The notes beneath the pieces were generated by a model that saw only the letters and a list, made by a program, of their open reading frames with translations, ran no database searches and was not told where the DNA came from. A DNA stretch of 64,000 nucleotides from Cymbomonas tetramitiformis (lineage: Eukaryota; Chlorophyta; Pyramimonadophyceae; Pyramimonadales; Pyramimonadaceae). This document shows positions 8,875 through 46,483 of this stretch, piece by piece (within the stretch, counting starts at the first letter, position 1; each line of letters starts with the position of its first letter). A program made the translations under genes and the position numbers. The stretch spans positions 1 through 64,000 of the forward strand of contig LGRX02035288.1 of the NCBI GenBank assembly GCA_001247695.2, in the 5' to 3' direction.

Positions 8875-9624
8875 TTAGCATCGTTTCAATACCCCATTGT
8901 GGATTTTGCATTTTGTTTTTAATAATGATGTTGCTGCTTCAGTATAATACTTATGATCTATTTCAACCCCAATAAATTTGCGATTATTGTTATTGCATAC
9001 CCGACCGACCGTGCCGATACCCATGAAAGGGTCTAACACATTATCATGATCATTTGAATAAGTTCTAACAATCCATTCTAATATATCATAAGGCTTCGCA
9101 GTCGGGTGCTTGCTTTTGTAATTTCCGTTGGCAATAGTTATCACAGATTTCGGAAACCGTTTCCCGTCCGATATTGTGTTAATCCTGGGGCTGTTTCCGG
9201 TGTACAGCTCGGTGCGTCTACCCGGGACACGTGTGTACGCAATTCCATCGGTCATCTGTGGATTATAAGTAGGTAACTTATCATAGAATACATACAGCAT
9301 CTAGTGACTGCGTAGTGGCATCTGATTACAATGATAAAACCCAGAACTAACCGTTTTATGCCAGACGATATCATATCTGAACATCTTTTCATTGCTGGAT
9401 ATTAACTTATGTCCGAACCGAGTTGTGCAAAAGAATACATATGCAGTGCGTGGTTTACCAATACGTTTCAATTGTTTCCATAATCGATCTAAATCAATAA
9501 CTTGATTGTCAAATTTGCACGCTGTTTGATTGTACGGTAGGTCCAAGATAATTAAATCAATTGAATTAGAATCGATGTTCGGTAAGATATCGAAACAAGC
9601 AGCATTAAATATCTGGGTCGTCAT
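8875..9624 (-). pseudogene. DNA N6-adenine/N4-cytosine methyltransferase, interrupted by one UAG
   Basis: Read from the ATG at 9624 (MTTQIFNAACFD), one frame of 250 codons encodes a class-beta amino-methyltransferase. The catalytic motif IV is LDLPYNQT (a DLPY variant of DPPY) near residue 38, and the SAM motif I, LDPFMGIGTVGRV, lies near the C-terminus, in the order typical of this class. A single in-frame TAG at 9301-9303 splits it after MPLRSH, in a region where related enzymes are expected to read straight through. Both halves are otherwise intact and in the same frame. Either the copy is a recent pseudogene or the stop is read through. It would methylate DNA in the virus or host nucleus. 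Five palindromic repeats lie upstream, the nearest 48 bp from the ATG. Confidence 0.75.
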
Positions 9625-26648: not shown

Positions 26649-26652
26649 TTAA

Positions 26653-27113
26653 CTCTATGACGGTCCGGTTTTTTTCAGCCTTGCGACCCACGTACGCGTA
26701 AGACCCGAACCCTGAGAGCCGGCCTGCATTTCGAACCTCCCCACCCTGCCCCCCCGCCAACCACCAAAAACGTATTATTTCGCCACTCTGCTAGTGTGTT
26801 GGGACACCTCGCGCGCCGCACGAATCGAAGCGGTTCGCTCGCTACGCCCTGCTCCGTCAGCGCAACCATGCTCGGGCCACACCCCCTCCAATGCCCCCAC
26901 CTACCACGGTCTACATCAACAACCTTTTGCACTAGAATTAGGGGTGTGCCGAGCCTCCATGTGGCAAGGCGCGGTAGCCCCACATCCCACCCGATGTCCT
27001 TCGTCATCCCCACCATGCATCTTGCCTTGGCCATCGAGCTACACGCCGCTACAGCACGCCAACTGCACCCTACCTGTCGTCCCACCAATTCCGGGGGGTG
27101 GACCGTCATAGAG
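26653..27113 (+). mobile_element. MITE A, copy 1
   Basis: 461 bp with perfect 14-bp terminal inverted repeats, CTCTATGACGGTCC and GGACCGTCATAGAG. GC-rich with no credible ORF. Its left flank is TTAA, the border of the composite; its right flank is ATATcctgccc, the start of repeat B. Confidence 0.85.
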
Positions 27114-27262
27114 ATATCCTGCCCTAGCCCCCCTTCGAAATCGGCGGATCCATGGGGCTCCAAGCCACCCCAGCGGTCGAGTGACCCTTCAGGGCATGTG
27201 TTACATTGTTTTCGATGCACATGGCACCACGAGACCGAGTTTGGATTCATTGGCCATATCGT

Positions 27263-27722
27263 CTCTATGACGGTCCGGTTTTTTCAGCCTTGCGACCCAC
27301 GTACGCGTAAGACCCGAACCCTGAGAGCCGGCCTGCATTTCGAACCTCCCCACCCTGCCCCCCCGCCAACCACCCCAAAAGTATTATTTCGCCACTCTTC
27401 TAGTGTGTTGGGACACCTCGCGCGCCGCACGAATCGAAGCGGTTCGCTCGCTACGCCCCGCTCCGTCAGCGCAACCATGCTCGGGCCACACCCCCTCCAA
27501 TGCCCCCACCTACCACAGTCTACATCAACAACCTTTTGCACTAGAATTAGGGGTGTGCCGAGCCTTCATGTGGCAAGGCGCGGTAGTCCCACATCCCACC
27601 CGATGTCCTTCGTCATCCCCACCATGCATCTTGCCTTGGCCATCGAGCTACACGCCGCTACAGCACGCCAACTGCACCCTACCTGTCGTCCCACCAATTC
27701 TGGGGGGTGGACCGTCATAGAG
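27263..27722 (+). mobile_element. MITE A, copy 2
   Basis: 460 bp, same ends and orientation as copy 1, with only scattered differences. It sits in repeat B between ..ggccatatcgt and atatcctgccc. Confidence 0.85.
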
Positions 27723-27992
27723 ATATCCTGCCCTAGCCCCCCTTCGAAATCGGCGGATCCATGGGGCTCCAAGCCACCTCAGCGGTCGAGTGACCCTTCA
27801 GGGCATGTGTTACATTGTTTTCGATGCACATGGCACCACGAGACCGAGTTTGGATTCATTGGCCATATCCTGCCCTAGCCCCCCTTCGAAATCGGCGGAT
27901 CCATCCATGGGGCTCCAAGCCACCCCAGCGGTCGAGTGACCCTTCAGGGCATGTGTTACATTGTTTTCGATGCACATGGCACCACGAGACCC
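27723..27992 (+). repeat. repeat B, two tandem units including an empty MITE site
   Basis: The unit of about 145 bp runs from atatcctgccctagcccccc through gcggatccatggggctccaa and cagggcatgtgttacattg to tggattcattggccatat. At about 27,860 two units meet as ggccATATcctgccc with no MITE between them: the unoccupied site. Occupied sites read ggccATAT, MITE, ATATcctgccc, so the duplication is ATAT. Other B segments are 27,114-27,262, 41,275-41,567, 42,030-42,080 and 45,582-45,681. The second unit here is cut at 27,992 by the 12.8-kb insert. Confidence 0.85.
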
Positions 27993-28575
27993 GAAGATAG
28001 TCGTAAGAAAGTCGGTGGCAGCAAATCAAAAAAAGCAGCGCCGGAACGGGCCAAATTTGTGATCGAACCGGATTACCGCGCGATTCGTCTTATGTCCGAG
28101 TTGATAAAAACGCATAACCTGATTCAAGAGAGCCAGTACAGGCGCACCTCGCATAGCTCCACGCCGAGTCACTAACGCGCGCGCGATCAAACCTGGTCGA
28201 CGACTCCCGAGAGTGTCGCGAAGCATCCTCGGACCGAGCGACGCGCTGTCGTACGTCACATCGACGAGGACATCGTAGAGATCATCATGGATTTGGACCT
28301 CGAGAACGGACGACTGCAAAAGACAAACGAAAGTCCGCGGCGCCGATTGTGTTGTTCGAGGTCGGTGCTCTCGTCGTGCCCGTCTCGACAAGCGCGACGC
28401 TCTTCGAGAGCAGGCGTTGTTGCAATTGCACTTTCGTGAACGAACGCGAGAAAACGCGCGTTCATCTTTCGGAGGTATTGCGAATGCGCCCCGAAAACAA
28501 TTCCAGGAATGCGAGCATCAGGCTGTTGCGTCGTCATCGGATGAAGCGAGCGAAACGTACACCGACACGCTAGCA
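27993..28575 (+). pseudogene. broken gene fragment at the left border of the insert
   Basis: The frame entered from the junction reads EDSRKKVGGSKSKKAAPE and on to a TAA at 28173-28175. In the same frame coding-like sequence continues (WSTTPESVAKHPRTERRAVV, then IDEDIVEIIMDLDLENGR) until about 28,340. There a frameshift leads into a third piece ending near 28,575 (DKRDALREQALLQLHFRER). One stop and one frameshift therefore break a charged, helical protein whose 5' end is missing. Family unknown. Its truncation marks the insert border. Confidence 0.45.
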
Positions 28576-28789
28576 TAAAATGTACACCGCGCGTGTGCAA
28601 GTCGAGCGAGCGTCGGAGAGAGAGAGAGAGCACCGTTCTTGTAGTTTCGCCGAAGCGATCTTGCGACCCTTAAGATAGCCACCTTTTTTTACGACTCTTT
28701 ATATTTACAAACTCGATCGTCGAATGTCGAAACGCGCCTCGATTCACAACTCGCATACGGCGCTTACGTTAACAACCGATCGATGCCAT

Positions 28790-29128
28790 CTATCCGCCGC
28801 TGCACCCTATGAGTCCACTCCAATACCTAAGAGTCCACGATGCGTTTACAAACTCCTTCATGGGTACCTTCGTCGTCACATCAGATCCAAAGATCGTGTT
28901 GCACACGGTAGCTAAGGGCTCCGCGCTTCGAAAGCATTTGCGGATGAGCGCGATATCGCGCCTCGATAACGCTTGTGAAATGGTCACCGCGCTCGTGCGA
29001 GGTACCAGTTTCGCGTTGAAATCCGTGCCCATAATAACGCATAAAACGACGAAACGCGCGAGATCCTCGTCGTTGTACATCGTATCGACACGGAACAAAA
29101 GTTTGTTTTCGGAATTCCACAAATTTGA
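28790..29128 (-). CDS. possible XPG/FEN1-like nuclease fragment
   Basis: Coding-like from about 29,125 (NLWNSENKLLFRV) to the stop at 28,790. The stretch DLARFVVLCVIMGTDFN followed by a basic helix and RRDIALIRKCF resembles the XPG-I region plus the start of the helix-turn-helix of flap endonucleases (..LC.LLG.DY...). The N-terminal catalytic half is not present upstream, where an ORF on the other strand occupies the space. If correct it is a remnant of a viral replication or repair nuclease. The glycine loop after GTDFN is not canonical, so the call is tentative. Confidence 0.3.
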   Translation of the reverse strand, partial: SNLWNSENKLLFRVDTMYNDEDLARFVVLCVIMGTDFNAKLVPRTSAVTISQALSRRDIALIRKCFRSAEPLATVCNTIFGSDVTTKVPMKEFVNASWTLRYWSGLIGCSGG

Positions 29129-29269
29129 CCTGGTCGCATCTTTACCGACGGAACGCGCCGGTTGTGGGGTGATGTGTGGAAGCTGTGTGGAAGCTGGTCG
29201 CGGACCGCGTGGAAAAAGGGCCTTTATCACAACATCAGGGCTTTGCGACCGGTTGTGCAAGCGGACCGC

Positions 29270-29488
29270 ATGGCCGGCGTGCGATGCTTTCGTGAAGTGG
29301 TGCGAGCGGTGGAGGAACTGTGCGTCCGACTGCCGAGCGTGGAGGCCTTACGAACCATCCGAATGAGCCTGCAGATGTACGAGATATTGATGGACTGCAC
29401 GACCGATCGCGCCAGCACGACCACCGACTATAAAGTGGGGATCGCCGGCGGAGAATTCGTGGGCCTGCCGTCGCCTCTGTGGTACTGA
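29270..29488 (+). CDS. small unknown protein or C-terminal fragment
   Basis: From the ATG at 29270 (MAGVRCFREVV), 72 codons to 29488, ending in a distinctive YKVGIAGGEFVGLPSPLWY. It has helical content and no recognised motif. The frame is open upstream to 29162 without family signal. It may be the end of a larger lost gene. Confidence 0.35.
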   Translation: MAGVRCFREVVRAVEELCVRLPSVEALRTIRMSLQMYEILMDCTTDRASTTTDYKVGIAGGEFVGLPSPLWY

Positions 29489-30022
29489 GAGCGGTGGGCA
29501 CTCGAAGAGCGCTTTGACGGAATGCAATTGTACAGAAGTGAAGTAGATGAAGAAACCGCTTATTCGTAATGTCGACATTTTTTTGTGCATAGACACGCTC
29601 TTATAAACCTCGTCTTATCACATTTGCGCGCGTGTTTGACTGTGCACGCAAAAATACAAATATTCGAAATCGAGTTTTTTACGTCTCCGTACATCCGTAT
29701 TCTCTTTCAAGCATCCTCGCGTGATTCGATAAGCGCCACTCCTCGTTTTTCGCTCATCTCTCGCTCCAAACGGCGTCACCGTCATCGCACTATGCAAGTC
29801 GTCGACACGACGCGATAGATAATCAACCTGTCGCCTCGTGCATGACCGAATCGGCGTAGAAATACTTCTCTAACGGCGACACACACACGAGCGGCGGTAC
29901 TCGAGTCAAATCGGACTAGGGGACTAGGCAAGGGCCTACACCGGGATTCCCGGGAGGGCTGCTTGGGCTACTCCTAACATGTGAGACCCACTATTTGTGT
30001 ACAACGCATGTCCACGCACTTA

Positions 30023-30730
30023 TCACGATTGGGCGGCCCGCCCGGAAAACGATGCTGGTAGCGCCCCTTGTGCTCCGTCCACATCCTCCTGAGGTGTGCG
30101 ATCGTCCAGTGCTTCTTCAAGTTTCTGCTTAAACTCATCCGACCTTACATAAGTGTCCAACATTTGTTCTGTCATCGCATGAATCAAGTCCCTTAAATGG
30201 CTGCTCGTCTTATCAGTATACTCCTCAAAACGGCCGTCAAGCTTAGAGAGTCCTGCTCGTAGCGCGTCCATTTCGACGATTGCCGCATTGTAAGAAGTTT
30301 GGAATTGCGTGAGTTGAGCGTCGAGTGCAGCTAACTGGTTGGTGTGGGTCACGAGCTTTGCTCTCGCGTTTTCAATGGAGGGAAGGATGTCAGCAACTGA
30401 CATCGAACGATTCCCGGGCATATGCAAATCGACGATCGCATCATGACGAATTGACATCGTTTCGTGGATGTGGTTCGCCTTCCGCGCGATTGATGAAACA
30501 CGAATCATTACGATCTTACTGGTATCTATACGCCCCACACCGCTGATCGCACCTTTCGTTTGCTCACCGGCGTTTAGAACTGTCACTGTCGGAGCAGGGC
30601 TAAGAAGATGAGGAAACGCGATTTGATGAGTGTGAAGTGGGAAGGTTGTGGAAGAAAAAAGCTCGCTCTTGACGCCGTCTACGATGGCGGCGCCGCTATC
30701 CGTCCGAATCGCAAGCTTTGAAACTTGCAC
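30023..30730 (-). CDS. unknown protein with C-terminal coiled coil
   Basis: 235 codons, intact, but the only start candidate at the 5' end is GTG (30730) directly after a stop. The true start may be in an upstream exon, since ctttaagag before it could be a splice acceptor. Residues 1-115 look globular and beta-rich (VTVLNAGEQTKGAISGVGRI, DLHMPGNRSMSVADI). Residues 118-205 are a coiled coil (AKLVTHTNQLAALDAQLTQF, FEEYTDKTSSHLRDLI). A structural or trimeric fibre-like virion protein would fit, but that is inference. Confidence 0.5.
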   Translation of the reverse strand: MQVSKLAIRTDSGAAIVDGVKSELFSSTTFPLHTHQIAFPHLLSPAPTVTVLNAGEQTKGAISGVGRIDTSKIVMIRVSSIARKANHIHETMSIRHDAIVDLHMPGNRSMSVADILPSIENARAKLVTHTNQLAALDAQLTQFQTSYNAAIVEMDALRAGLSKLDGRFEEYTDKTSSHLRDLIHAMTEQMLDTYVRSDEFKQKLEEALDDRTPQEDVDGAQGALPASFSGRAAQS

Positions 30731-30813
30731 CTCTTAAAGAGCGCGGCATGTAGAGGGAGCCTAGCCCCCACAATGCACCGATTGGTATAAAAAGCGGTTC
30801 CACATGCGAATAT

Positions 30814-30873
30814 CCCGGCCCAGAGCAGGGCCGGGGAAATTAATTTACCCATACGCCCGACGGGCGTGATTTT
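30814..30873. terminator. two GC hairpins, the second followed by a T run
   Basis: cccggccc (30,814-30,821) and gggccggg (30,828-30,835) form an 8-bp stem. acgcccgacgggcgt (30,853-30,867) is a tight hairpin followed by gatttttt. Palindromes at transcript ends are typical of some giant-virus mRNAs (the hairpin rule). However, both flanking genes are on the minus strand and this lies between them, so it could serve the RING gene's 3' end only from the other strand's view. Confidence 0.35.
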
Positions 30874-31084
30874 TTCTTTTTCTTTTTTCTTTCCGAGGAT
30901 TATCCAGGACGGTTAAATATACAGCGGGAGGTTCTACTCGTAAACACCTATCGACAATCACAAAGCAAATCCTTTCACAGCACCCTTGTAAGCGGTCCGT
31001 GAAAGTGGTCCTTCTAACGGGAACATTTGCAGCCCAGTCTCTACATCGTCAGTTCGTTGCCCGCATTTAGTATGCGACGCGGGG

Positions 31085-32288
31085 TTAGCCCTCCTCGGCA
31101 GGGCGCTCGCGTACGCTACGCATCACGCCGGGGATGAATTGGTGCATCCTCTCCGTGTCGTCGACCGCGAAGGCGTTGTCCGAAAGCACCACTCGCTGGA
31201 CGTGCCTGACCTCCGGGAAGCGAGCGAGTATCCTCTCGCGGTAGCTTTGTAGAAAGTTCGCTCGGGACGTGTCCGAAGCGAGTCGGTCCCGCTTGTCGAA
31301 GCGCAATACCTCGCAAAGCCAGTGTCTCTCCGTGTCCCGCAACGCTCCCATATCGGCGATCAGGTTGAGCTTGGACGCCTCGTCCGCTTTCGCTCGCTGC
31401 AGCAGAGGTCCGTGCAGATGAACCCACTCTCTCACGAGGTGGTCGGCGTGCCAAGCCGTGCGACATGTGTGGCACGCCGGTTCGACGCTCGCGACGCCCT
31501 TAAGGCGCAGGTTTCTCAAACACCGCAAACACGCGTGATGCCGACAATGCACCGAGGCCACGGGCAGAAAATGCGGCTCCATGCAAATGGCGCAGATGGC
31601 CTCCTCCTCGGACTCCGAGACTTCCGCGAGCTCGCTGACCGGCGGCGTGCTGACGAACGCGAAATGATAGGGATTCTTGCGCACGACACCTTCGTACAGC
31701 GTGTGGGAGGGTCATGAAAGTCGAGGTGGCGGACTCCAATCGCTTCTCGAACTCCACGAGGAGGTCCTCGACGTTCACGTTACCGGAGTAAAGCGTGGTC
31801 GGTGAAGCCGAAGGTGTCGGCTTGTGCCGCTCGCACTGCGACACCGTGCGCCCGTCGGGGCGCTCCTGAAGGATGCTCGCCTCGATATCAAGGCGGCAGC
31901 AGGGGCACTCGGGTCGAAGGCAGAGGCGACGCCGGGTCTCCTCCTGCCGAGCCGGGCTGGACTGGCTCCACCTGGCTCGACTCCCGAAGGCGAGGCACAG
32001 CTCGGCCATCTCGTTCCTGCGCGCCGCGATCGCGGGTGAGTCCGAAGCGACGGAACCGTCCGAAGCGTAAACAGGCCGACGGTCGAGAGCGTACCTCATG
32101 GAGAGCCCCCGAAACCGCGCCTCGTGACGAGGCTTCTTCTTGGGCGCCCCTGGCGGCGAGGTGGGCGAACTCCGGGGGGTGGGCTCGGGGCTGCTGTAAC
32201 GGTCACGACGCGGCGCGGTCAGGATGCGTCCCGGAGTGGAGCACCGAAGCATGGACGGGGAGAGCGAGCGACAGCGCTTAGGAGCCAT
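31085..32288 (-). pseudogene. RING-finger protein in two overlapping frames
   Basis: The first frame starts at the ATG at 32288 (MAPKRCRSLSPSML). It is Ser/Pro/Arg-rich with a Cys cluster (CLRPECPCC) and remains coding-like to about 31,715 (NVNVEDLLVEFEKRLESATS). A second frame takes over from about 31,715 to 31,085. It holds a C3HC4 RING: CAIC, then C-x-H-x2-C-x2-C (CRHHACLRC), then CHTC, near its residues 31-76, followed by a charged helical tail. The second frame has no ATG at its start, so a one-base frameshift in a single gene of about 390 residues is the simplest reading. RING proteins are usually E3 ubiquitin ligases, and large DNA viruses often carry them. Confidence 0.55.
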
Positions 32289-32403
32289 GACGCGAAGAGA
32301 GGAGGTAAGTTGTGGAGGGCGCAAACACTGGCGATTCGGCAGCGAAATGAGGCGATGCACCATCGGCTCGGTTTAAATGGTCCAGCGAACGACCGTCGCC
32401 GCC

Positions 32404-32522
32404 GATCACGCTCGGCGGCCGATCACGCTCGGCGGCCGATCACGCTCGGCGGCCGATCACGCTCGGCGGCCGATCACGCTCGGCGGCCGATCACGCTCGG
32501 CGGCCGATCACGCTCGGCGGCC
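32404..32522. repeat. iteron-like array, seven 17-bp repeats
   Basis: gatcacgctcggcggcc is repeated seven times head to tail without a single mismatch (7 x 17 = 119 bp). It lies 116 bp upstream of the RING gene's ATG, between it and the next minus-strand gene. Perfect identity implies recent expansion or function, as in iteron-type origins or promoter-proximal binding sites. Confidence 0.9.
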
Positions 32523-32661
32523 ACAGGTGGAACAGCGGTTCGGATGTAAAAAGGGCAAACCATCATAAAATCGCTTCACAACCGAGCGACGCACCAAAAC
32601 AATCACACCTCCCCCAGCTTACTCGCTCTTTCCACGGAAGAAACATGTCTCTGAAACGCAG

Positions 32662-33207
32662 TCACACTTCCAACCCCGCCGGTGCTTCGCCTGTTTGGTA
32701 CTGATTACGAGCGGCCTCGGTCACATCACCAAAAGACATTGTGCCGTTATCGATGACGTCCAACTTTTCGGGCCAGCGACGGACGATTTCCAGGATGCCT
32801 TCCGGGGGATGCAAATCGAACTTCAAGGCTCTTCTGTACCGTTCGGACACGCTCATGCCAGCTCGCGGTCCAAACTTTCTCGCGAGTTGGAAGGCGTTCA
32901 CACGCTCGACATCCTGAACGGTGATTCCGCGAGCGGCGCTCGAAGAGCGTATGCGCGACGCGTGCTCCTTGGCGCGCCTCCTACGTAGCGTGTCTTTGAT
33001 CAGACCGCACCGCGATTTTAAACGTTCCACATTCTGCGCGACAAACGTACGAATGCTATCTTGACGGGATTTGCCCGCATAGAGTTCGCTATCGCGACTC
33101 ACTTCTTTCAAGCACTTTTCCATTTTGATAAGACGAATCCGCAACGCCCGTTCGCCTTCCTCGTGCAGATAAGGATTCCCATCATCCGCGCTCTCGAGTA
33201 CCCGCAA
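32662..33207 (-). CDS. unknown basic helical protein
   Basis: 181 codons, coding-like throughout (ALRIRLIKMEKCLKEVSR, RYRRALKFDLHPPEGILEIV), strongly basic in the middle (IKDTLRRRRAKEHASRIR). No ATG at the 5' end; the frame begins at a TTG after a stop, so the first exon or the start is missing. No family recognised. DNA or RNA binding is possible from its charge. Confidence 0.45.
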   Translation of the reverse strand: MRVLESADDGNPYLHEEGERALRIRLIKMEKCLKEVSRDSELYAGKSRQDSIRTFVAQNVERLKSRCGLIKDTLRRRRAKEHASRIRSSSAARGITVQDVERVNAFQLARKFGPRAGMSVSERYRRALKFDLHPPEGILEIVRRWPEKLDVIDNGTMSFGDVTEAARNQYQTGEAPAGLEV

Positions 33208-33603
33208 GATTCATCCGAGACGTGTCTAATTTGCTTTCGTCTGAGAAGGACTTACGCGCCGAACTGATGGACATATTCTTAGAGAAATACGTAAAAATGA
33301 CAAAATACCGAGATCACGCTTGCCACGTTACGTTTAATAAGAGTGTCTGGAAAGCAATCAAAACAGCAGAAACAGCCCAGCAGCAGTGAGGGCACGGATG
33401 ATGGCGACGATGAGCACTCCTCCGGTGTTGACGAGAGTCTATATGACCGTGGGATGCGTTTGGCATCGCAGAAGGAACACTTAGCGACTAAGTCCGGGCT
33501 TCGAACCAAGCGTTTGCGACGCGCCGCGCACAAAAACGTCTCGGCTTTGGATGCAACGACACGCATCGAACCAGTGCAATGCGCAGCACGGGCGCTTATT
33601 TGA
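33207..33603 (+). pseudogene. frameshifted gene fragment
   Basis: The first frame from 33,207 is coding-like (RFIRDVSNLLSSEKDLRAEL, then FLEKYVKMTKYRDHACHV) and stops at 33,388. About 40 bases earlier (near 33,345) a +1 frame takes over and continues (SGKQSKQQKQPSSSEGTDDG, then GMRLASQKEHLATKSGL) to the stop at 33,603. One frameshift in a single gene of 130 or more residues explains both. N-terminus unknown; it abuts the divergent minus-strand gene. Convergent with the TylF-like gene. No family recognised. Confidence 0.4.
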
Positions 33604-33617
33604 TATCCGCTCAGGAT

Positions 33618-35079
33618 TCACTCCTCCGTGGAGACATAATCGAAACTTCGTCTGTAGTGAAATATGCAGTTTTTATTTGAGCTTGTCCATTTGACAACGT
33701 CATCAGCCGTCATGGTGAAACCGTGCTCGGGGGTCACACCGGGGCCCATGGCCTCCACCACAAAGTACGGCCGCCAGCCTGTGTGGGTGTGAACCATATT
33801 GGAAGCACATGGTCCACATACACAGCGGAACCTGACGTTGTACTTAACGGACATTTCTTTGTGCGCTTGTGCCTCACCGCCATGGGCGTACGGATCCACA
33901 GCCGGCCGGTCCATCACCTGTTCTGCTCTCGGACTCACGTACTTTCCATTTTTGTCCTGTCGACGGTGTGACGCACATGGCACTACCCACCAGTCGTCGT
34001 ACCCAATGAGCGTCCCAACCTGAATTAGCCCCTCGCGAAACATCCAATCTAGAGATTGCACCGTCGATGTGTGCAAATCACAATCGATGTCTACATAAAG
34101 CGCCGGAGCCATTCTGCGTGGAAGGAAGCGGTCCACGGTGTCCGCATTGAGCGATTCGTTGTAAAAGCCCTTAACAAATTGCACTTCATCCGGCCCCCCA
34201 AGACTCCGAGTCAACCCCTCCATAGTCACACCTTTCAAGGTGGCATTATACTGACCGACACTCCAGTGTCGCAATCTGGGAACACTCTCAGTTTCTTCTG
34301 GAAGCCCTTGGAAGCTGTCGAAGCCCCATATAAAATTTGAGGGAAACGTCCCTTTGATTTTCTTGAGCGTGGTTCCCTCAAATACCCCAAATTGGTACAC
34401 GTCGCCAGTCACCTGTAAAACAGGCAGGACGTTCACGAGAGACCATGTCACAGCCTTCACCGGAGATGAGGCAAAAATTCCCCATTTGTCCATTTGGGTT
34501 TCAGGACCAGAATTTACTTCAAAATGACACATGTTATCACCGAAACTGCGCAACATCTTCAACCGACGTGAAAACTCATCCAAGCCTTCTTTTCCAATTG
34601 GCTCACTGTGATCTGCCATATCGCTGTCCACGACCGCCCAATCCGGTAACCAACATTTTAAGCTGAGTGCAACCTAAAGCAAAGAAAGGTGCATTAAACT
34701 ACACCGGTACGTATAGTGAACGTCACACGAGTAAACTACCTCTCCGTACAGATCAAGCGCTGCACTTGGATGTGGCTGTGAATACACCAGACATAAGGAA
34801 TGCCGAAATCAAGGACCAACGAATGTGCGTGGCAGCTTATTGTCAAAGAATGTGCTCTCACAGCCATGCCAAGTAGATTTTTTACGATGGAGCCATTCTC
34901 TCGTAAGGTAGCCTACCGGTGCGCTGTGTCTGCAAGGCTGGGTTTTGTGGAGCGCTGGCTTTTCCGCAAGTGCAAGATACATACCTGGAGTTACTGCGCG
35001 TTACAGGTTGTGGATTCTTGGAGCAGGGTTTGTGGAGACTTGTAAAGATGGTGATAATGCTGAGCAGGCACACCGCCAT
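33618..35079 (-). CDS. TylF-like methyltransferase with membrane anchor, two exons
   Basis: Exon 2 (34662-33618) encodes a macrocin-O-methyltransferase (TylF) fold: GDVYQFGVFEGTTLKKI for SAM binding, then GFDSFQGLPEETE, then VDIDCDLHTST, an acidic metal-binding motif. TylF-type enzymes methylate sugar hydroxyls. The frame is open at its 5' end but lacks an ATG there. An exon at 35079-34985 starts MAVCLLSIITIFTSLHKP, a signal-anchor, and ends at a strong donor (ccag|gtatgt). The acceptor ctcag at 34,663 is in matching phase (both 2), giving a 379-residue type II membrane protein with a 322-bp intron. That would place a sugar methyltransferase in the Golgi lumen. A spliced gene in a virus-like segment suggests host origin or capture from a host. 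Confidence 0.6.
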
Positions 35080-35568
35080 AGTTGCCTGCAGTAGCAAGGC
35101 GTTCGCAACACTCTGTTCTCGGCGCTCTCCACAAGCGCGAGAGCAACGAAGATTTGGGGGATTGATGGATAGGACAAGTACCTGGATGACCCTGATGGCG
35201 GGCGTCCTGTAGAAGTCCATATCTGAGGGTCCCCGCGAGCACGCCACACAGAGAACCACGTGTGTGCTCGGTCAAGCGCCCTCGGCCTTTGCGTTTGTGC
35301 TCGCAACCGTCGCCAGTCACCTGACCGTGTAATCGCAACCGGCTCTTGACATTGTTCGCCACACAGGAGAAGGCGGATTGCACTTGGTGTCGTATATATA
35401 CGTGTGCCCCGGATTCGGAGTATCGAAGCGCTTAAGTGCGCGTGTACGTTCCGTCGCGTACGATCCGTACACGTTCGTTTGGTGTACGGGTGCTCCACCG
35501 AATATAAGGTGCTGGACGGAGTAAGTAAATCGGGCGAATGGATGGTTCGTATAATCGAAATTCGGTGA
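35080..35568. other. intergenic, 5' region of the TylF-like gene
   Basis: No gene supported; overlapping minus-strand ORFs here are weak. tatatata-like sequence near 35,393 (cgtatatatacg) could be a TATA element for the minus-strand gene. Confidence 0.35.
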
Positions 35569-38500: not shown

Positions 38501-39078
38501 GGCGTTGGCGGCATTCTCGGAGGCGCGGGCGGAGGCGAAGGTGACGAAGGTGGCGAAGGTGGCGGCGACAGGGTGGGGCCGACATACTCCGTCGCGAAGA
38601 TTCGCAGTTCCATGATCACGGTCGGAACGGAGGCGTACGCATCTCGAATGCCGAAAAATATGGCATCCGTGGTGACGACGGGGTCGAAGGTCACCATGAG
38701 CGATCGGCCCTCCCCGTCTCGATAGTTTTCGAGGAATCTCGTCTTTTCAAACTCGTCCCTCAAGGAGTCCTCCTCGGGTGGGTAGTCGCACAGGGAGAAG
38801 CGATGGTTCGGTATTTCGTACCTCTTGGACGAAACGTCGGTGACGTTCGCGCGCACTTCGGTGTCCGAAGACGCCGCCGTCCAGTTCGAGACCGCGCGCC
38901 AGGTCACTCCGTCATCGCTCGCGACCAAAAGTCCCGCCGCGGGGAACTCGCCCTGACTGTGCAACGTGACGGAACGCAGCGCTTCGGGGGTGAGCAGATC
39001 GACGTACAGCACGGGCTGCGTCCACGACGGCCACAGGTAAAGGTAGTCCTCGAACGTGTGGTCGTTCAAGCTCGTCAC
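35569..39078 (-). CDS. giant surface protein with proline linkers and LamG-like domain
   Basis: 1169 codons without interruption. Residues about 1-165 look like a discoidin (F5/8)-type domain (MELRIFATE at its end). Then comes a linker PPPSPPSSPSPPPAPPRMPP; a long aromatic-rich beta domain (about 210-480) with concanavalin/LamG-like strands (LILFNRSLDEGELSRIYKEE); a second module with disulphide-type cysteines and many N-glycosylation sites; and a second linker (NPPSPPALPPAPP near 825). After that is a C-type-lectin-like stretch (CLYVIRAHNVAELYYND, CDRFAHVKCVCQK) and a LamG start (FESFTLSYWSRL) that ends early. Such architectures occur in algal walls and on algal virus particles. No ATG at the 5' end (GTG at 39,078 after a stop) and a truncated last domain suggest a damaged or spliced gene. 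Confidence 0.55.
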   Translation of the reverse strand: MTSLNDHTFEDYLYLWPSWTQPVLYVDLLTPEALRSVTLHSQGEFPAAGLLVASDDGVTWRAVSNWTAASSDTEVRANVTDVSSKRYEIPNHRFSLCDYPPEEDSLRDEFEKTRFLENYRDGEGRSLMVTFDPVVTTDAIFFGIRDAYASVPTVIMELRIFATEYVGPTLSPPPSPPSSPSPPPAPPRMPPTPPSLLTLPRVGVRSLSTSNWYVFGRGDVDTTTNEYRYGYKARLETTDFPADWDRHNGIMSEPDEELARAFNTKNQDDSTGFTFVYFTILAAGVPYDASNRWGMTRRGGCGLTDGDRDVFWLGQIAVTPARAASAYPYVYFYTGFGSADSGQAFYNDMHTSYNDGYYEQDHFDGLQGSAQMFAVTYKQKKLRVYIGYNDTFEEIPNSANDFSNQNWNYWPTWDRASFSCGFDYNRFDVGSYPYNNLILFNRSLDEGELSRIYKEEGFAGTEDPLLQDVLAWYPMHTENWWEDVSGNGRHMYEYRSPNYGTANAADRTFADIQSMRDTYLVTRPGEKSNYYIQVADPAHFSLAAYTPQHMYRGKIYDGYEIGAYFLGVRVVPDQRWFEFPEWYTGEHIIVTDNHALNRASDNTACDTNKKDAWVLSTYDRSYSLSNGDTLYISPYDEDEARSLDGYYPLYRRGYLGSQHEIPHNCSLALGEWDCNATSGTEGVVRFGFPNENHTLNHGNHTPVRHEAGCPTDLFDRSDSTGWFTSDGRYNMLYRFGEARYVDGIAFAMNDGLLESLSVTCYEDFGNASSTFATVIDVTEAISPDDGWVNLTGNATATCLSARVRASTTGGITESALVYYPSEPLSNPPSPPALPPAPPRGVMVEGYFPVFASEPEAKSALPLADAFLIKLTAGYYYMPSGLVQGAEVWYGDYVGTVDSSADDAQGNATDSSSVSAWGFSAFACSEALRANKETCLGDRVREQLGGVVAGEIDTVAYPSGCLYVIRAHNVAELYYNDAKNVWHGCDRFAHVKCVCQKGVPESERRLVTRTTDPRFDALRYRLTFQDEEDPLRAVNGNGREAPQGSFNLTRGRPALEFSVTPHGRFAGGSLVMNSSSGGLRLSTDDRVLGLGGAPFESFTLSYWSRLEQKVARPSTPVLRTVPNGRFVDERALESPVSHARQLRIVEATADALSRTNPAGWYVPPTKLTPT

Positions 39079-39259
39079 ATCGAGGTGCGACGCGTACGTG
39101 TATCACGAATTTTGACAGGCTCGATCAAACGAGAACATCGATGGCACACCGCGTTTGTGGGACGAACGTTCGTGTATGTCAAGCCCACCGTTTCATTTTT
39201 AAGTCGCGCATCGGATCGAGGACGAGCCTCCGCCGTACGAAGCATCCTTGCACGTGCCG

Positions 39260-39781
39260 ATGACAAACCCACCATCCATTCACGTCTCGCTCGGAGCGAG
39301 ACGAAAGAGGGGTGCGAGAAAAAGGCGTCGCGATCGTAGAGTATGCGAGAGACCGGTCGCCGTTGTTTCGACCCAGCTCGTCGAGTCGGAAGATCTCGAA
39401 TCGACCCAAAGCGTGCAAGGGACATTTACCGTGGTAGAGATAGAGCTGTCGGAAGGCATGGTGTCGCTCACGCAAAACTGGGAAAGCGTCGATCGCGACA
39501 CCGGGACATCTTTCGAAGCGTTGCGCGTCCGGTCGGGATATCGCGAGGATCAGACAGCGTCTTGGTGCGAGCTCGTGCACCGCAAGCTGAGGTTCGTGGT
39601 GATGCGAAGTAAGATAGAGCTTGGCAGCCGCTTTCTCGTAGCCAAAATAAACGGCCTACAAGCGGCGTCGCAAGCCGTGTATTCGGATGTACGACGGAGC
39701 GCGACCTCCGACGCGATTGACGCTTTGTCCGAAAGTCTGAGAGTAGCGGAAAATATACGTAAGCTCAAACGCTTAATCTGA
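39260..39781 (+). CDS. unknown protein
   Basis: From the ATG at 39260 (MTNPPSIHVSLG), 173 codons. The first 40 residues are Arg-rich and may be a chance extension. From about 45 on it reads as a folded domain (VQGTFTVVEIELSEGMVSLT, SWCELVHRKLRFVVMRSKIE) with a C-terminal helix. Divergent from the giant surface-protein gene, whose 5' end is 182 bp away. No family recognised. Confidence 0.45.
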   Translation: MTNPPSIHVSLGARRKRGARKRRRDRRVCERPVAVVSTQLVESEDLESTQSVQGTFTVVEIELSEGMVSLTQNWESVDRDTGTSFEALRVRSGYREDQTASWCELVHRKLRFVVMRSKIELGSRFLVAKINGLQAASQAVYSDVRRSATSDAIDALSESLRVAENIRKLKRLI

Positions 39782-40093
39782 AAAGGGCGCCCTTGCCTAC
39801 ACGTCGTGCGATGGCTGATCGATTAAAATCAAGCTTTGCGATTTCACCAAAAGAACCCTGTCCGCACTCGATGGCGCACGTCGAACCACGGACAACTGCG
39901 CGTGAGCGTGTTTGTCGAAGTAACAAAGGCGCACCGATCGGTCGCGATGTTGGGTAACCGCTTCTTAGCTGTACACGCTTGGTAAGAATTGTAACATATC
40001 CGATGCGCGTTTCGGAGGTACCGTCGCACGCTTTTTTTGAGGAAAACAAACCATACGCGGCACGTCGGAAGGAGAGAGAGGGAAAAGGAAAAC

Positions 40094-40495
40094 TCACGCC
40101 TCATCGAGCGTACGATCAAACCGATTTCTCCGGCTCTGCTCCGAGCCGAGCGGCACGTCGGAACACTGCAGAGAAATCGATCGCGACACGTGCGCAAAGC
40201 ACATTCGGCGTGCTCCGTGGTCGGCGCGATCGCGTAAAATTAAAAGGAGCGTCGCCCAACTCGGAACGCGCCGATGTGCGAGCTTAAGGGGCTTCTTGAC
40301 GATGGACGTCGCTAAGACGTACGCAGCGCGTCCCGCGACCCGATTGCGGCCTACGATAACCTCACGGCACCGCGAATGCATGATGACGGTGCTTCGGCTG
40401 ACCATGTTTGCTTTTGGCGCCTTAAATCCGTCGCGCACGAGTTTCCCCGATTCCGCTCGAACGTTGACCACGCTCGCACCACTAGACTTCGCCAT
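40094..40495 (-). CDS. small basic unknown protein
   Basis: From the ATG at 40495 (MAKSSGASVVNVRAESG), 133 codons. The first 80 residues look coding and basic (FKAPKANMVSRSTVIMHSRC); the tail is less convincing. It starts 46 bp after the stop of the next gene upstream on the same strand. Function unknown. Confidence 0.35.
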   Translation of the reverse strand: MAKSSGASVVNVRAESGKLVRDGFKAPKANMVSRSTVIMHSRCREVIVGRNRVAGRAAYVLATSIVKKPLKLAHRRVPSWATLLLILRDRADHGARRMCFAHVSRSISLQCSDVPLGSEQSRRNRFDRTLDEA

Positions 40496-40540
40496 CCGAC
40501 CGCGCCGATTGAAATGGCGTCGGGTACCACACAATGGACG

Positions 40541-40785
40541 CTAAGGCGGGCACGTTCGATCGTGCAGAACGTCGAAGGTCATCGAAAAGTCGAATCGCAC
40601 AAACACGGTGTCGAACCACACACGCCCGACGTCGTACAGGAAATAATTTGAATGAACAGCCGACGCCAAACGGGACTCGTATCGCGCAATTTCAAAAGAG
40701 GGAGGCTTTCCGAATACACACGAAGCGATCGGCGCTATCGGGTACCGGCGATCTCGAAAACGGAAACCGATCACGCATATATAGA
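40541..40785 (-). CDS. truncated gene at the right border of the insert
   Basis: C-terminal fragment, about 80 codons up to the junction with repeat B, with a plausible protein sequence (SNYFLYDVGRVWFDTVFVRF). The 5' part is absent because repeat B begins at 40,786; the frame merely runs on into the repeat. This is the counterpart of the truncated ORF at 27,993 and supports the segment being an internal piece of a larger molecule. Confidence 0.4.
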
Positions 40786-40806
40786 GTTTGGATTCATTGG
40801 CCATAT

Positions 40807-41274
40807 CTCTATGACGGTCCGGTTTTTTTCAGCCTTGCGACCCACGTACGCGTAAGACCCGAACCCTGAGAGCCGGCCTGCATTTCGAACCTCCCCACCC
40901 TGCCCCCCCGCCAACCACCCCAAAAGTATTATTTCGCCACTCTTCTAGTGTGTTGGGACACCTCGCGCGCCGCACGAATCGAAGCGGTTCGCTCGCTACG
41001 CCCTGCTCCGTCAGCGCAACCATGCTCGGGCCACACCCCCTCCAATGCCCCACCTACCACAGTCTACATCAACAACCTTTTGCACTAGAATTATTAGGGG
41101 TGTGCCGAGCCTCCATGTGGCAAGGCGCGGTAGCCCCACATCCCACCTGATGTCCTTCGTCATCCCCACCATGCATCTTGCCTTCGCTTGGCCATCGAGC
41201 TACACGCCGCTACAGCACGCCAACTGCACCCTACCTGTCGTCCCACCAATTCTGGGGGGTGGACCGTCATAGAG
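40807..41274 (+). mobile_element. MITE A, copy 3
   Basis: 468 bp with the 14-bp inverted ends, flanked by ATAT on both sides (ggccATAT and ATATcctgccc). Small insertions (an extra tta and a cttcg duplication) distinguish it from copies 1 and 2. Confidence 0.85.
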
Positions 41275-41567
41275 ATATCCTGCCCTAGCCCCCCTTCGAA
41301 ATCGGCGGATCCATGGGGCTCCAAGCCACCCCAGCGGTCGAGTGACCCTTCAGGGCATGTGTTACATTGTTTTCGATGCACATGGCACCACGAGACCGAG
41401 TTTGGATTCATTGGCCATATCCTGCCCTAGCCCCCCTTCGAAATCGGCGGATCCATCCATGGGGCTCCAAGCCACCCCAGCGGTCGAGTGACCCTTCAGG
41501 GCATGTGTTACATTGTTTTCGATGCACATGGCACCACGAGACCCGAGTTTGGATTCATTGGCCATAT

Positions 41568-42029
41568 CTCTATGACGGTCCGGTTTTTTTCAGCCTTGCG
41601 ACCCACGTACGCGTAAGACCCGAACCCTGAGAGCCGGCCTGCATTTCGAACCTCCCCACCCTGCCCCCCCGCCAACCACCAAAAACGTATTATTTCGCCA
41701 CTCTGCTAGTGTGTTGGGACACCTCGCGCGCCGCACGAATCGAAGCGGTTCGCTCGCTACGCCCTGCTCCGTCAGCGCAACCATGCTCGGGCCACACCCC
41801 CTCCAATGCCCCCCACCTACCACAGTCTACATCAACAACCTTTTGCACTAGAATTAGGGGTGTGCCGAGCCTCCATGTGGCAAGGCGCGGTAGTCCCACA
41901 TCCCACCTGATGTCCTTCGTCATCTCCACCATGCATCTTGCCTTGGCCATCGAGCTACACGCCGCTACAGCACGCCAACTGCACCCTACCTGTCGTCCCA
42001 CCAATTCTGGGGGGTGGACCGTCATAGAG
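41568..42029 (+). mobile_element. MITE A, copy 4
   Basis: 462 bp, same ends, ATAT on both sides. The repeat B to its right is interrupted at 42,080 by the LTR retrotransposon. Confidence 0.85.
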
Positions 42030-42080
42030 ATATCCTGCCCTAGCCCCCCTTCGAAATCGGCGGATCCATGGGGCTCCAAG

Positions 42081-42343
42081 TGACAAGACCAGTGAAATAT
42101 ATATATATATATAAGGGCGGAATATAGATATATATCAGTGTCTCAAAAGGACTCAGAAACAAGCAGTGAATTGTCGGAATAAGCTGAGATAGATAAAACA
42201 TTACATGCTTTTATCTGTGCGGTGAGACAGTCGGCTGTCAGGGAGATGACAGATGACAAGATGGCAGGGTCACTCAGGGCAAGGGGTGAGCAAAGGATCT
42301 GGACTCCTCCCATACAGTGGGGGGAAAGTCACAGTACCCGTGA
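42081..42343 (-). repeat. LTR, left copy
   Basis: Begins tgacaagaccagtg, includes an (AT)n tract at 42,100-42,112, and ends cagtacccgtga. It differs from the right copy mainly in the AT tract and a few substitutions, so insertion is recent. Read in the element's direction this is the 3' LTR. Confidence 0.88.
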
Positions 42344-42531
42344 CACCACCTCACCCAAAAGGTGTTAGTGGGATGCCAGATGAATGCAAGCCCTAACCTA
42401 GCCCAAGGTTACTTCAAATTGTTAGGACCTAAGGAGCCTTTTCCAGCTCAACTAGAGGCACATCCGTGCGTGGGCGTTGTCCTAACACTCTAAGCACCAC
42501 AGACTAAAAGGAAGGCTGCAAACAATCTCAA

Positions 42532-43358
42532 TTAGGTTTCAGCCGCGCGATCAGGTGTCAGCGCAGGCTCCCGGAAGGCGGGGTACATGGAGTCGTCGGG
42601 CTCATCCAGCGCAAACTGATCGGCATCCTGCGGCACGGCATGGAGGGCAACGTCGTCGTCGATCGACGGTCCAACCCAAGATGCCTGCTGCTCAACTCGG
42701 AATGTCATGAAGCTGGCGACGCCTGTCGGAGGCGGCTCCGTAGGCACCACAGACTCCGGTACCGGAATATCCAAGTACACTAGATATCAAGCTGCACCAC
42801 CAACTCGGAGAGGCGGCCGGTGTCGTCGGTACCACGATAATGATGTTTCTTGGAACCAAGGATATCCTCGCGGATACCCTTGGCCCAAGCCCGATGCAAG
42901 CGCCCCTTGTACACCGCGTCAACCGTGGCATGTTGGTCGACTAGGTGCTTCCGCAACGCGACAGCGGTGTCGGAGTTGCTGGAAGCAGCAGGGGGCACCA
43001 CAGGTGGGGTGCTAGCGGTCGGAGTGTCCCGAACCGCATCCAAAAGCCGTATTGAGGCGTCCAAATCGGAGTCCCTCAATAGGCGTTTGCGAGCTCGTGT
43101 AGATGTCGCCATACTTTTGAAAGCCATAGAAAAGATGATGCGCGGTAGCACGTTTGGGTGTTGTGGCGGAAACGGAGCGAAGACGTAACGGCAAAACGTG
43201 CGGAGCGGCGAAACGAGCGTGGGGCACTTGCAAATGTCGATGTGGTCGAAGGTGTCCGGAGCACCAGCCCAAAATACGTAAACCAGCGGGATCAGGGCAG
43301 GTAAAGTAACGCAAATGAACATTGCCAAAACCGAGCAATAGCAACGCGCGGTGCCCAT
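42532..43358 (-). pseudogene. captured gene fragment inside the retrotransposon
   Basis: Two coding-like pieces. From the ATG at 43358: a membrane segment (VLAMFICVTLPALIPLVYVF), then a Thr/Pro-rich and helical part ending at 42,780. In another frame from 42,780 to 42,532: YLDIPVPESVVPTEPPPTG and an acidic tail. The sequence ccggaatatccaagtacact and the bases after it occur both near 42,762 and near 43,512, flanking the first piece as an approximately 30-bp direct repeat. It resembles neither gag nor pol, so I read it as host sequence picked up by the element. Function unknown. Confidence 0.35.
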
Positions 43359-43668
43359 GACTCGCAGCCGCAAGAGACGTCTACCGTAAAGTCATGTCCA
43401 AATCCTAGTCGCACCCAAACGCGCAAGTGCGCACCACCCCTTCAAGCGGCTGCTTAGCCAATCATGGCCAAGATAGCAAGTGGAATGAAAACGTGGATGG
43501 GGCCACGACCTACCGGAATATCCAAGTACACTAGATATCAGAAAGTCCCGTACTCGTGTGGATAAACTGTATAAGATAAATAAACCCTAAGCTAGATATA
43601 CCCGGAACGGTCTCGGACGGTCTCGGAGTCTAGCCTACCTGTGACACAGCGTGTGTCACAGTACGAAC

Positions 43669-45056
43669 CTACAGATCAGTCAGCAGTCCAGTGTTGGTCC
43701 TAGCTAGGGATCTGTCATAGGGGCCTGACCGGGACTCCCAGTCAGGGCTGCCTATACAGATTTCAGCATCCGGTGCAGGTGCCTGTGCGGCGTCAGGCTC
43801 TCCGAACACGGCAGCGGAAGCCGACGCGGCGGCAGCAGGCGGCGGGCGCGAGCGGTAGGGGGGCGCGCGCCCTTGAGCAAATGCCTCACGGCATGTGTAC
43901 GGGCACGCCCCTTTAGTGTCGGGGTGCGTGTCCGTCAGATTCCAAAGGCGAAAGCAGACCAGGCAGGGGTAACCAGTGCCCGTCCACCTCTTGGTGAGCG
44001 CGCCAGGCTGCGCGGTCCACTCACCAACGGGCTTGATGTCGGCGTTCTTGGCGGACAGCGAATTGAACGTGGGCTTTTTGACTCTGTACTCGGCGGGTTG
44101 AGAGTCAGTCGAGCGGGTGGCGAGGGGATGCTCCTCCCTCCATACCGTACGGATACGGAGGCAGAGGGCGGAGAAAGAGTAGACCTTGCCACCACGGAGC
44201 TCTCGGATGATGTTCAGGTACAACGGGGTGACGAAAGGCGATAGCTTTGCAGAGCTGGCCAGGACGTGCCACAGGTCCTTCACCCTCTTAGCCTCGCTGT
44301 AGTCGGGGTTCAGATGGGCGTGCTTGTCGCCCAGCTTGCAGATGACGGTAAGCTGAGGGGCGGGGTCGGAGTCCTCGTCGACCACGGATGCCCGCAGCTT
44401 CGACCAATACCTGTCTGTGTCAGGGTCAGGCACCCCCTCCACCTCGTACCGTAGCCGCTGGAGGACGTACCGGCCGTCAACGGGATGGGAGCGCGCGGCT
44501 TCGTGGTACAGCGCCAGTGCTGTGCCACGAAGCACCACAGGCAGAATGGTAAAGAGGATCTCGTTCAGGGTGATGTGGTAGAACTCGTGATCGTTCTCCA
44601 GGTCGAGGAGCTTCGAGAACTCAGCGTAGGAGATGGGGAAGAGGACATGTCCCAACCCAGCGAGGAGGACGGTGAAGTCAGACTCGGCCTCCTCGTTGTC
44701 CGCAGGGTGAGGCCGGTTTTCGGGTTGAAGCCGCCGGATTTCAGCACAGTCACGAGGTCGGTGGAATAGGCGAAAGCGTAGGAGAGGTTCTCCGCGAACT
44801 CCTCCTCGCGTCCCAGCTCAACAAGAGTCGAGACAAGGACGGATGGGTCGTTGAAAAACTCGAATGGGGAGGGGGCAGGCCGCGACGATGTAGGGGTCGA
44901 ACGCTGCGAGGCCATTGTGGCAATTCTCCGCTTCTCTGGCGTGCTGCCTGGCGTTGGTGAGCGCCCATCACCTGGGGTCGGCGAAGGCGAGCTGGCACCA
45001 GCCTTACGGGCTGTGCGAAGGGCTTCGGCAAGGGATTTTTGGCGGAGCTGAGACAT
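43669..45056 (-). pseudogene. Gag-like protein of the LTR element, one frameshift
   Basis: The first frame starts at the ATG at 45056 (MSQLRQKSLAEALRTARK) with a Ser/Pro-rich head. It stays coding to about 44,710 (VLKSGGFNPKTGLTL), where a one-base shift moves to the frame that runs to 43,669. The second part is helical (GHVLFPISYAEFSKLLDLEN, VKDLWHVLASSAKL, YLNIIRELRGG), as expected of a capsid domain. It ends with a knuckle-like YPCLVCFRLW..H...CPYTC, then a Pro/Ala-rich tail. Together about 460 residues. The shift could be inactivation or a ribosomal frameshift, though gag itself is not usually split this way. Confidence 0.6.
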
Positions 45057-45321
45057 GGGTAAAAAAAATTAACCCAGGCAGGCGAAAAGCTGACCGCGAA
45101 TGGGAGGCGCAAGAAATAATGTGCAAACGGTCTGGGAGCCGATCAGGGTGTCGAAATGGGTGCCGAAAGAAGAGCGTAAGCAAATTATAAGCGTAGCTCC
45201 GGGTACGTGCTGGGCGACGTGAAGATGAACTGTTGGGAACCGTCGGGAAGTAGAATCGAACTGGGGGCCGAAGCGAGCGAAAGCCGAGCGAGGAAACACC
45301 ACAAGTGGTGGAACCGTAACC

Positions 45322-45581
45322 TGACAAGAACAGTGAAATATATATATAAAAGGGAAGAATATAGATATATATCACTGGGCTCAAAAGGACTCAGAAACAA
45401 GCAGTGATCTGTCGGAATAAGCTAAGATAGATAAAACATTACATGCTTTTATCTGTGCAGTGAGACAGTCGGCTGTCAGGGAGATGACAGATGACAAGAT
45501 GGCAGGGTCACTCAGGGCAAGGGGTGAGCAAAGGATCTGGACTCCTCCCATACAGTGGGGGGAAAGTCACAGTACCCGTGA
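45322..45581 (-). repeat. LTR, right copy
   Basis: 260 bp matching the left LTR. In the element's direction this is the 5' LTR; the gag ATG is 266 bp inside it. Confidence 0.88.
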
Positions 45582-45681
45582 CCAAGCCACCCCAACGGTC
45601 GAGTGACCCTTCAGGGCATGTGTTAGATTGTTTTCGATGCACATGGCACCACGAGACCGAGTTTGGATTCATTGGCCATAT

Positions 45682-46163
45682 CTCTATGACGGTCCGGTTT
45701 TTTTCAGCCTTGCGACCCACGTACGCGTAAGACCCGAACCCTGAGAGCCGGCCTGCATTTCGAACCTCCCCACCCTGCCCCCCCGCCAACCACCCCAAAA
45801 GTATTATTTCGCCACTCTGCTGGTGTGTTGGGACACCTCGCGCGCCGCACGAATCGAAGCGGTTCGCTCGCTACGCCCTGCTCCGTCAGCGCAACCATGC
45901 TCGGGCCACACCCCCTCCGCCAATGCCCTTCACCTACCACAGTCTACATCAACAACCTTTTGCACTAGAATTAGGGGTGTGCCGAGCCTCCATGTGGCAA
46001 GGCGCGGTAGCCCCACATCCCACCTGATGTCCTTCGTCATCCCCACCATGCATCTTGCCTTCGCTTGGCCATCGAGCTACACGCCGCTACAGCATCAGCA
46101 CGCCAACTGCACCCTACCTGTCGTCCCACCAATTCTGGGGGGTGGACCGTCATAGTGATAGAG
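45682..46163 (+). mobile_element. MITE A, copy 5, right border of the composite
   Basis: Left flank ggccatat as in other copies. The right end reads CATAG-TGATAG-AG followed by TTAA: the normal CATAGAG end with a 6-bp insertion. Beyond it the sequence is unique, so this copy closes the 19.5-kb structure. Confidence 0.75.
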
Positions 46164-46483
46164 TTAAGGCTCTGACTAGTGAGAATACTACGACTGATAA
46201 ACTCAAAACCGAAAAGTGAACTTCTCGTTCTGCACCTCCCAATTCTGTACCTCGTCGCGGTGAACTGGGTATGGGTTCGTGGCTTGGTGCTCCAGAACCT
46301 GCATCAAGTTTCCGTTGGCCTTCATCGATAATTACACTCTCAACTGGCGAACTAGCAAACAACTAAGTATTATCACCAATGGATCAACTCTACACGGGAG
46401 ATAGTAGTTTACTTTGACCGGGAGGCGTGGACCTATTATCACCCGTCGGCATTCTAGTTCCTGGGTTCCAAATAAGATATGCG

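Follow-up and report, generated by a model that had tools for sequence, protein, structure and literature searches.

A 19.5-kb block in the genome of the green alga Cymbomonas tetramitiformis begins and ends with termini of a single repeat family, called A here, and encloses a 12.8-kb virus-like stretch. This arrangement raises the question of whether transposon ends moved viral DNA into the locus or whether the two arrived separately. The block lies in a window of 64,000 nucleotides (contig LGRX02035288.1, positions 1 to 64,000), for which an original prediction, made from the letters alone, had proposed that miniature inverted-repeat transposable elements (MITEs) either mobilized a large cargo or recombined with an array carrying viral DNA. 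Our analysis of the window and of the genome assembly indicates that the block is very probably a multimeric composite transposon of the form A-(B-A)n, and that the virus-like fragment and a long terminal repeat (LTR) element are later, independent insertions. The composite transposon is of greater interest than the virus-like piece, and the nested insertions are an ordinary part of the locus.

The borders predicted at 26649 and 46167 hold, as does the inventory of five A copies, B units, the 12.8-kb stretch and the LTR element. Inspection of the left border reveals TTAA directly before the A terminus CTCTATGACGGTCC, while the far border reads ATAGAG and then TTAA. On the plus strand of the window there is a single match to the 10-mer ATAGAGTTAA, and the opposite strand matches it only at the left border. 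Copies of A are 460–482 bp long, start with CTCTATGACGGTCC and, A5 excepted, end with the inverted copy of this terminus. The window holds 11 matches to CTCTATGACGGTCC with three or fewer mismatches (shuffle mean 4.03), of which nine are exact. Together with six B units the A copies are arranged in the order A1-B1-A2-B2-B3-A3-B4-B5-A4-B6-A5, and the array measures ∼3.2 kb when the inserts are disregarded. Each B unit has a core of 138–143 bp that is separated from A by ATAT, with an additional CGT before A2, and a single ATAT is kept where two B units abut. The predicted cargo between A ends is indeed present, but each insert interrupts one B unit: the virus-like stretch (12,789 bp) lies inside B3, and the LTR element inside B6.

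Relatives of the array are widespread. The 14-base A terminus has 1340 exact matches (665 + 675) in the 851.7-Mb assembly, in which a reversed control pattern has 1 + 1, and 865 of the 1340 (419 + 446) are preceded by ATAT, the inner context. Among the first 100 listed of these 1340 places, loci were fetched on 40 of 41 contigs, and 17 of the 40 loci, chosen by us for clear window-type A and B sequences, were tabulated for outer ends. One or both ends are missing from eight of the 17 (C81, C119, C321, C330, C532, C789, C1290 and C1292), which are truncated, interrupted, cut by a contig end, or consist of A-B or B-A only. The B-A and A-B forms seen at L036 (C321) and L041 (C532) are expected if A-B-A loses one A. 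The 23 loci outside the table, among which C657 was looked at, are other subfamilies, fragments and diverged A copies, and they include a copy that lies at the end of its contig (C932) and a complex array (C1482).

All nine loci that keep both outer ends are flanked by a perfect 4-bp duplication (ATAA at C128 and C739, TTAT at C154, ATAT at C365, CTAG at C417, GTAT at C842 and C1095, and TTAA at C1156 and C1260). These complete relatives span about 0.46–1.7 kb and comprise seven A-B-A units, one A-B-A-B-A and one solo A. Because the duplication flanks every one of them, we conclude that the mobile unit is A-(B-A)n itself. The A ends beside TTAA have the look of genuine transposition borders, and the expectation that A ends can delimit a larger moving unit is borne out by the seven A-B-A loci, each with one outer duplication. 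Duplications of another length, named beforehand as evidence against the original prediction, do not occur among these: all 10 cases, the window included, are 4 bp long, and all have a central TA (NTAN). Thus, TTAA correctly describes the border in the window, but the family is not specific for TTAA.

The same terminus and the same A-ATAT-B-ATAT-A plan recur with different sequences on contigs C657, C1288 and C553. Searches on both strands (E, the expect value, 1e-5) gave no match of window A or B in these three loci, and a direct comparison on one strand showed that A has 15–23 end bases in common with them and that B is without a match. Units of C553 and C1288 are 67.5% identical over 499 columns, and C657 and C1288 are 72–81% alike. 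A copy on C774 is 74% like window A, which indicates that intermediates exist. On C553 there are 12 exact right ends, mostly ∼615 bp apart. Satellite-like arrays with units of ∼607–615 bp and the same transposon terminus are found at L043 (C553:29000-38098) and L057 (C1288). We also considered C657 as the carrier of a 5.5-kb internal part, and rejected this reading once the element proved to be an A-B-A from a different subfamily with an interruption in its first A.

In an alternative origin, only a solo A transposed into TTAA, and B was brought in by homologous recombination between this A and a B-A array that was circular or tandem. This event would likewise yield A at both borders and a single duplication, and most of the changes private to A5 are in its right half. 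However, solo A is represented once among the nine two-ended relatives, versus seven times for A-B-A, and the repetition of the A-ATAT-B-ATAT-A plan in subfamilies of other sequence suggests that the composite is what spreads. We therefore consider this origin unlikely for the block, although recombination of this kind is possible for the growth of the window multimer alone.

The virus-like DNA landed in B3 after the array existed. When the two halves of B3 are rejoined with an overlap of GA, they equal B5 at 151 of 151 bases, whereas independently chosen breakpoints would match within 2 bp in ∼3% of cases. The left 600 bp of the insert has 99% copies on C442 and C23007, and there are four weaker partial matches of 69–80%. 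On both contigs the sequence continues upstream in one open frame over the 250 bases read, and this frame is cut at the left junction in the window. The trinucleotide CGA at this junction is common to B and the viral relatives. The right 600 bp matches C18211 in two parts (98–99%, ∼1.8 kb apart), one of which also matches C25090 at 98%. The part reaching the cut is 98% alike in C18211, where a TA repeat and then other sequence follow past the cut point. Neither A nor B was found in the 250–300-base flanks of these relatives (best match E 0.58). Because the relatives run on past both ends of the insert, it is a portion, broken at both ends, of an element that is longer and dispersed, and its route of entry was probably end joining. 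Base composition also changes here: the CpG observed/expected ratio is 1.41 in the insert and shifts at both junctions, compared with 0.79–1.03 outside it (array, LTR element and other stretches), with the exception of 1.24 in a tandem array at 1–1422.

These data bear on the proposal that the outer A ends transposed the entire 19.5-kb unit, virus-like DNA included, into TTAA. The outer ends do look competent for transposition, and other loci carry A-B-A and A-B-A-B-A units that have a single outer duplication. However, a donor would share the left B3/insert junction unless movement was by cut-and-paste, and this junction, the only one of the two searched, has one match in the assembly at up to one mismatch. 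Moreover, the insert looks recent, given the identity of the rejoined B3 to B5, and the nine two-ended units elsewhere reach only the small sizes given above. With B3 interrupted, the left junction single and the relatives continuing past the cuts, it is highly improbable that A ends carried the viral DNA. There is only a very slight chance that assembly joined DNA of different loci, for although the repeat units barely differ from one another and the alga's published long-read assembly, from which the window presumably derives, is a fragmented hybrid according to the accessible part of its description (PMC10675990), the three nested borders are self-consistent (TTAA/TTAA, complementary B3 halves and CCAAG/CCAAG).

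Several observations nonetheless weigh against a composite transposon with later insertions. The right end of A5 is altered by a local change of 6 bp, in which GTCATAGTGATAGAG replaces GTCATAGAG. The A-B-A of another subfamily on C657 has ATAA on its left and TGGG on its right, and hence no matching duplication. No transposase domain was detected in the open reading frames (ORFs) scanned, and no genome-wide search was made for an autonomous partner. The empty TTAA site that had been anticipated is absent from the assembly (24-mer, up to two mismatches), so the outer insertion is deduced from the duplication and not from an allele. A tree of the A copies has almost no resolution, with 1 of 27 inner branches starred, so the multimer may have been born by transposition of the whole array or by growth after landing; dating the multimer by position-specific clustering of A copies likewise gave no resolution. 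Finally, the scanned ORFs of the insert include no capsid, polymerase, packaging or hallmark virus gene, and the term virus-like, which is not proven, reflects composition and weak gene hints.

A composite transposon very probably gave rise to the block as follows. Each A acts as a long terminal direct repeat (LTDR) with its own 14-bp terminal inverted repeats (TIRs), and B is the internal part. The transposon entered a TTAA site with duplication of 4 bp, after which B3 took up a 12.8-kb piece broken from a longer virus-like element, probably through end joining at a break, and the LTR element separately inserted into B6. Mobilization would presumably be in trans, by a transposase from elsewhere that recognizes A termini. 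As every A has both termini, any left end might pair with any right end, and mobility could hence extend from a single A through A-B-A to longer multimers. Multimers might grow through recombination or when A ends that lie far apart pair, and B-B with one ATAT could remain where an inner A has been lost. This mobility scheme follows the model discussed for KolobokP transposons in the part of the report available (PMC9587614). Coordinates of the block and of the main ORFs in the insert are collected in Table 1.

Table 1. Features of the 19.5-kb block, in window coordinates.
Feature	Position	Strand	Remarks
Left target duplication, TTAA	26649..26652		same 4 bp at 46164-46167
A1, first LTDR-like A copy, TIR CTCTATGACGGTCC	26653..27113	+	
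B1, flanked by ATAT, plus CGT before A2	27114..27262	+	
A2	27263..27722	+	
B2; single ATAT 27865-27868 links B2 to B3	27723..27868	+	
B3 left part, cut after GACCCGA	27869..27994	+	27865-27994: 130 bases identical to B5
Virus-like insert in B3, 12,789 bp	27995..40783		GA at 27993-27994 and 40784-40785
DNA polymerase delta subunit 4 domain ORF (PF04081)	32662..33210	-	E 5.2e-9; relatives P0004, P0005
TylF-like methyltransferase ORF	33618..34619	-	PF05711 E 1.7e-6; phrog_6608 E 1.5e-10
Large ORF, 1177 codons stop to stop	35569..39102	-	
B3 right part	40784..40806	+	23 identical bases
A3	40807..41274	+	
B4	41275..41420	+	
B5, uninterrupted B3 sister	41421..41567	+	
A4	41568..42029	+	
B6 left part, ends CCAAG	42030..42080	+	
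LTR element in B6	42081..45581		CCAAG at 42076-42080 and 45582-45586
B6 right part	45582..45681	+	2 mismatches to B4
A5, right end with 6-bp change	45682..46163	+	
Right target duplication, TTAA	46164..46167		

The gene content of the insert offers few landmarks. Over 98% of its length, the large ORF (35569–39078, minus strand) is 100% identical to the hypothetical protein CYMTET_54336; it has no Pfam match above the cut-off, no PDB match and no match among phage records. P0002, a gene model from another contig, shares 99% with part of this ORF (window 37606–39100) and then passes into unrelated repetitive protein sequence, which suggests that copies of insert-type elements are rearranged. Besides CYMTET_3854 of Cymbomonas, a protein of a 3,663-bp contig (source ‘lgn’) also has the DNA polymerase delta subunit 4 domain. 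The start of CYMTET_3854 is weakly matched at 40376–40462 (48% over 29 residues, E 3e-4), away from the rest at 32.7–33.2 kb, and the delta subunit 4-like gene thus looks split, with parts at 32662–33210 and about 40376–40495 (minus strand), relative to the unsplit P0004 and P0005. No literature linking POLD4 to giant viruses was found. Pfam matches below the cut-off include RING (E 0.014) and glycoprotein B (E 0.0085). Searches of PDB gave weak matches, one of them to polymerase delta subunit 4 (E 0.058), and methyltransferase matches with E 0.0011–0.011. Scans of IMG/VR gave no result for P0001, the A-terminus 21-mer, the POLD4-like ORF and its alignment, the methyltransferase or the ORF at 28790–29080. 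A protein search with the ORF that reads through A-B-A-B gave none. Around the methyltransferase ORF, at 33.6–35.4 kb, the CpG ratio dips to 0.77–1.0, and this stretch of host-like CpG (33600–35400) is perhaps a separate acquisition.

The LTR element in B6 is ∼3.5 kb long, with LTR segments that are 90–98% alike and CCAAG on both sides. Scanned ORFs within it (42081–45581) contain no domain recognized by Pfam, and a perfect direct repeat of 30 bp is present at 42760 and 43511. Elsewhere in the window, ORFs for a Prim-Pol/PriCT_2/helicase protein (3522–5720; Prim-Pol E 7.9e-12), an FG-GAP repeat protein (6921–8735) and a DNA methylase (8875–9300) suggest a second, separate virus-like stretch to the left of the block. 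The tandem array at 1–1422 consists of ∼37 copies of a 38-bp unit (GC 0.71), and an ORF at 60722–61363 has a glycosyltransferase family 29 (sialyltransferase) domain (E 1e-7).

In bacteria composite transposons are commonplace, but descriptions from eukaryotes are rare. The sole eukaryotic composite lineage found in our literature searches, as far as the accessible text goes, is KolobokP of animals. According to the available portion of its report (PMC9587614), KolobokP has an LTDR-INT-LTDR structure in which every LTDR bears short inverted repeats, and is known from seven animal phyla. Its LTDRs are about 450 bp (major type) or about 660 bp, and both solo LTDRs and (LTDR-INT)n-LTDR multimers occur, with target site duplications of 3–5 bp. 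In one family the 4-bp AT word TATA bounds INT and is kept once at INT-INT joints. Non-autonomous families are 1,738–3,261 bp long, and in autonomous ones INT carries genes for a transposase and a His-Me nuclease. As there described, Kolobok elements have the termini 5′-RR and YY-3′ and a TTAA-specific duplication, and piggyBac is quoted as TTAA-specific as well.

To the extent that this description allows comparison, the window family resembles KolobokP in its LTDR-INT-LTDR plan with separate TIRs on each A, in the length of A, in the occurrence of solo and multimer forms with 4-bp duplications, and in a boundary word kept once at internal joints (TATA there, ATAT here). In contrast, A-B-A is about 1.07 kb, B (about 140 bp) is too short for a transposase, and the host is a green alga. 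The family also differs from Kolobok in its termini, 5′-CT...AG-3′, and from both Kolobok and piggyBac in its NTAN targets, with five words besides TTAA. Given that these termini and targets are unlike the Kolobok description, we leave the superfamily unassigned. It is conceivable, if doubtful at present, that the elements represent a composite lineage outside animals and outside Kolobok, defined by LTDRs with full transposon ends, an A-ATAT-B-ATAT-A plan maintained across subfamilies, NTAN targets and movement as units that comprise a single A-B repeat or several, in which the window subfamily shares little with the others beyond its last 15–23 bases.

The nearest known parallel to the idea of MITE-bounded viral transport is Teratorn, reportedly a piggyBac-superfamily transposon fused to herpesvirus DNA. 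Here, however, the virus-like DNA is inside B3, away from the transposon ends, and the ORFs scanned yielded neither a piggyBac transposase nor a herpesvirus gene set. CHeCMEs and other endogenous viral elements from the same alga are described in the accessible part of PMC10675990 as virus-derived repeats with unusual composition, with mention of E3 ligase genes for CHeCMEs. Neither Pfam nor PHROGs revealed CHeCME- or mirusvirus-like markers (heliorhodopsin, HK97 capsid, SF1 helicase or portal) in the insert ORFs scanned.

Our searches found no literature on MITE multimers and, among the matches listed, no composite transposon with long terminal direct repeats from an algal host. The interest here lies in a green alga having a composite transposon similar in plan to KolobokP, four subfamilies of which have one 14-bp terminus and one plan. 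The locus also serves as a caution that transposon ends bracketing virus-like DNA need not mean transport by those ends. If the proposed lineage is real, its multimers could carry foreign DNA along once it has landed inside them. With 1340 exact termini and perfect duplications at all nine complete copies examined, the formation and persistence of composite transposons can be tested within a single genome.

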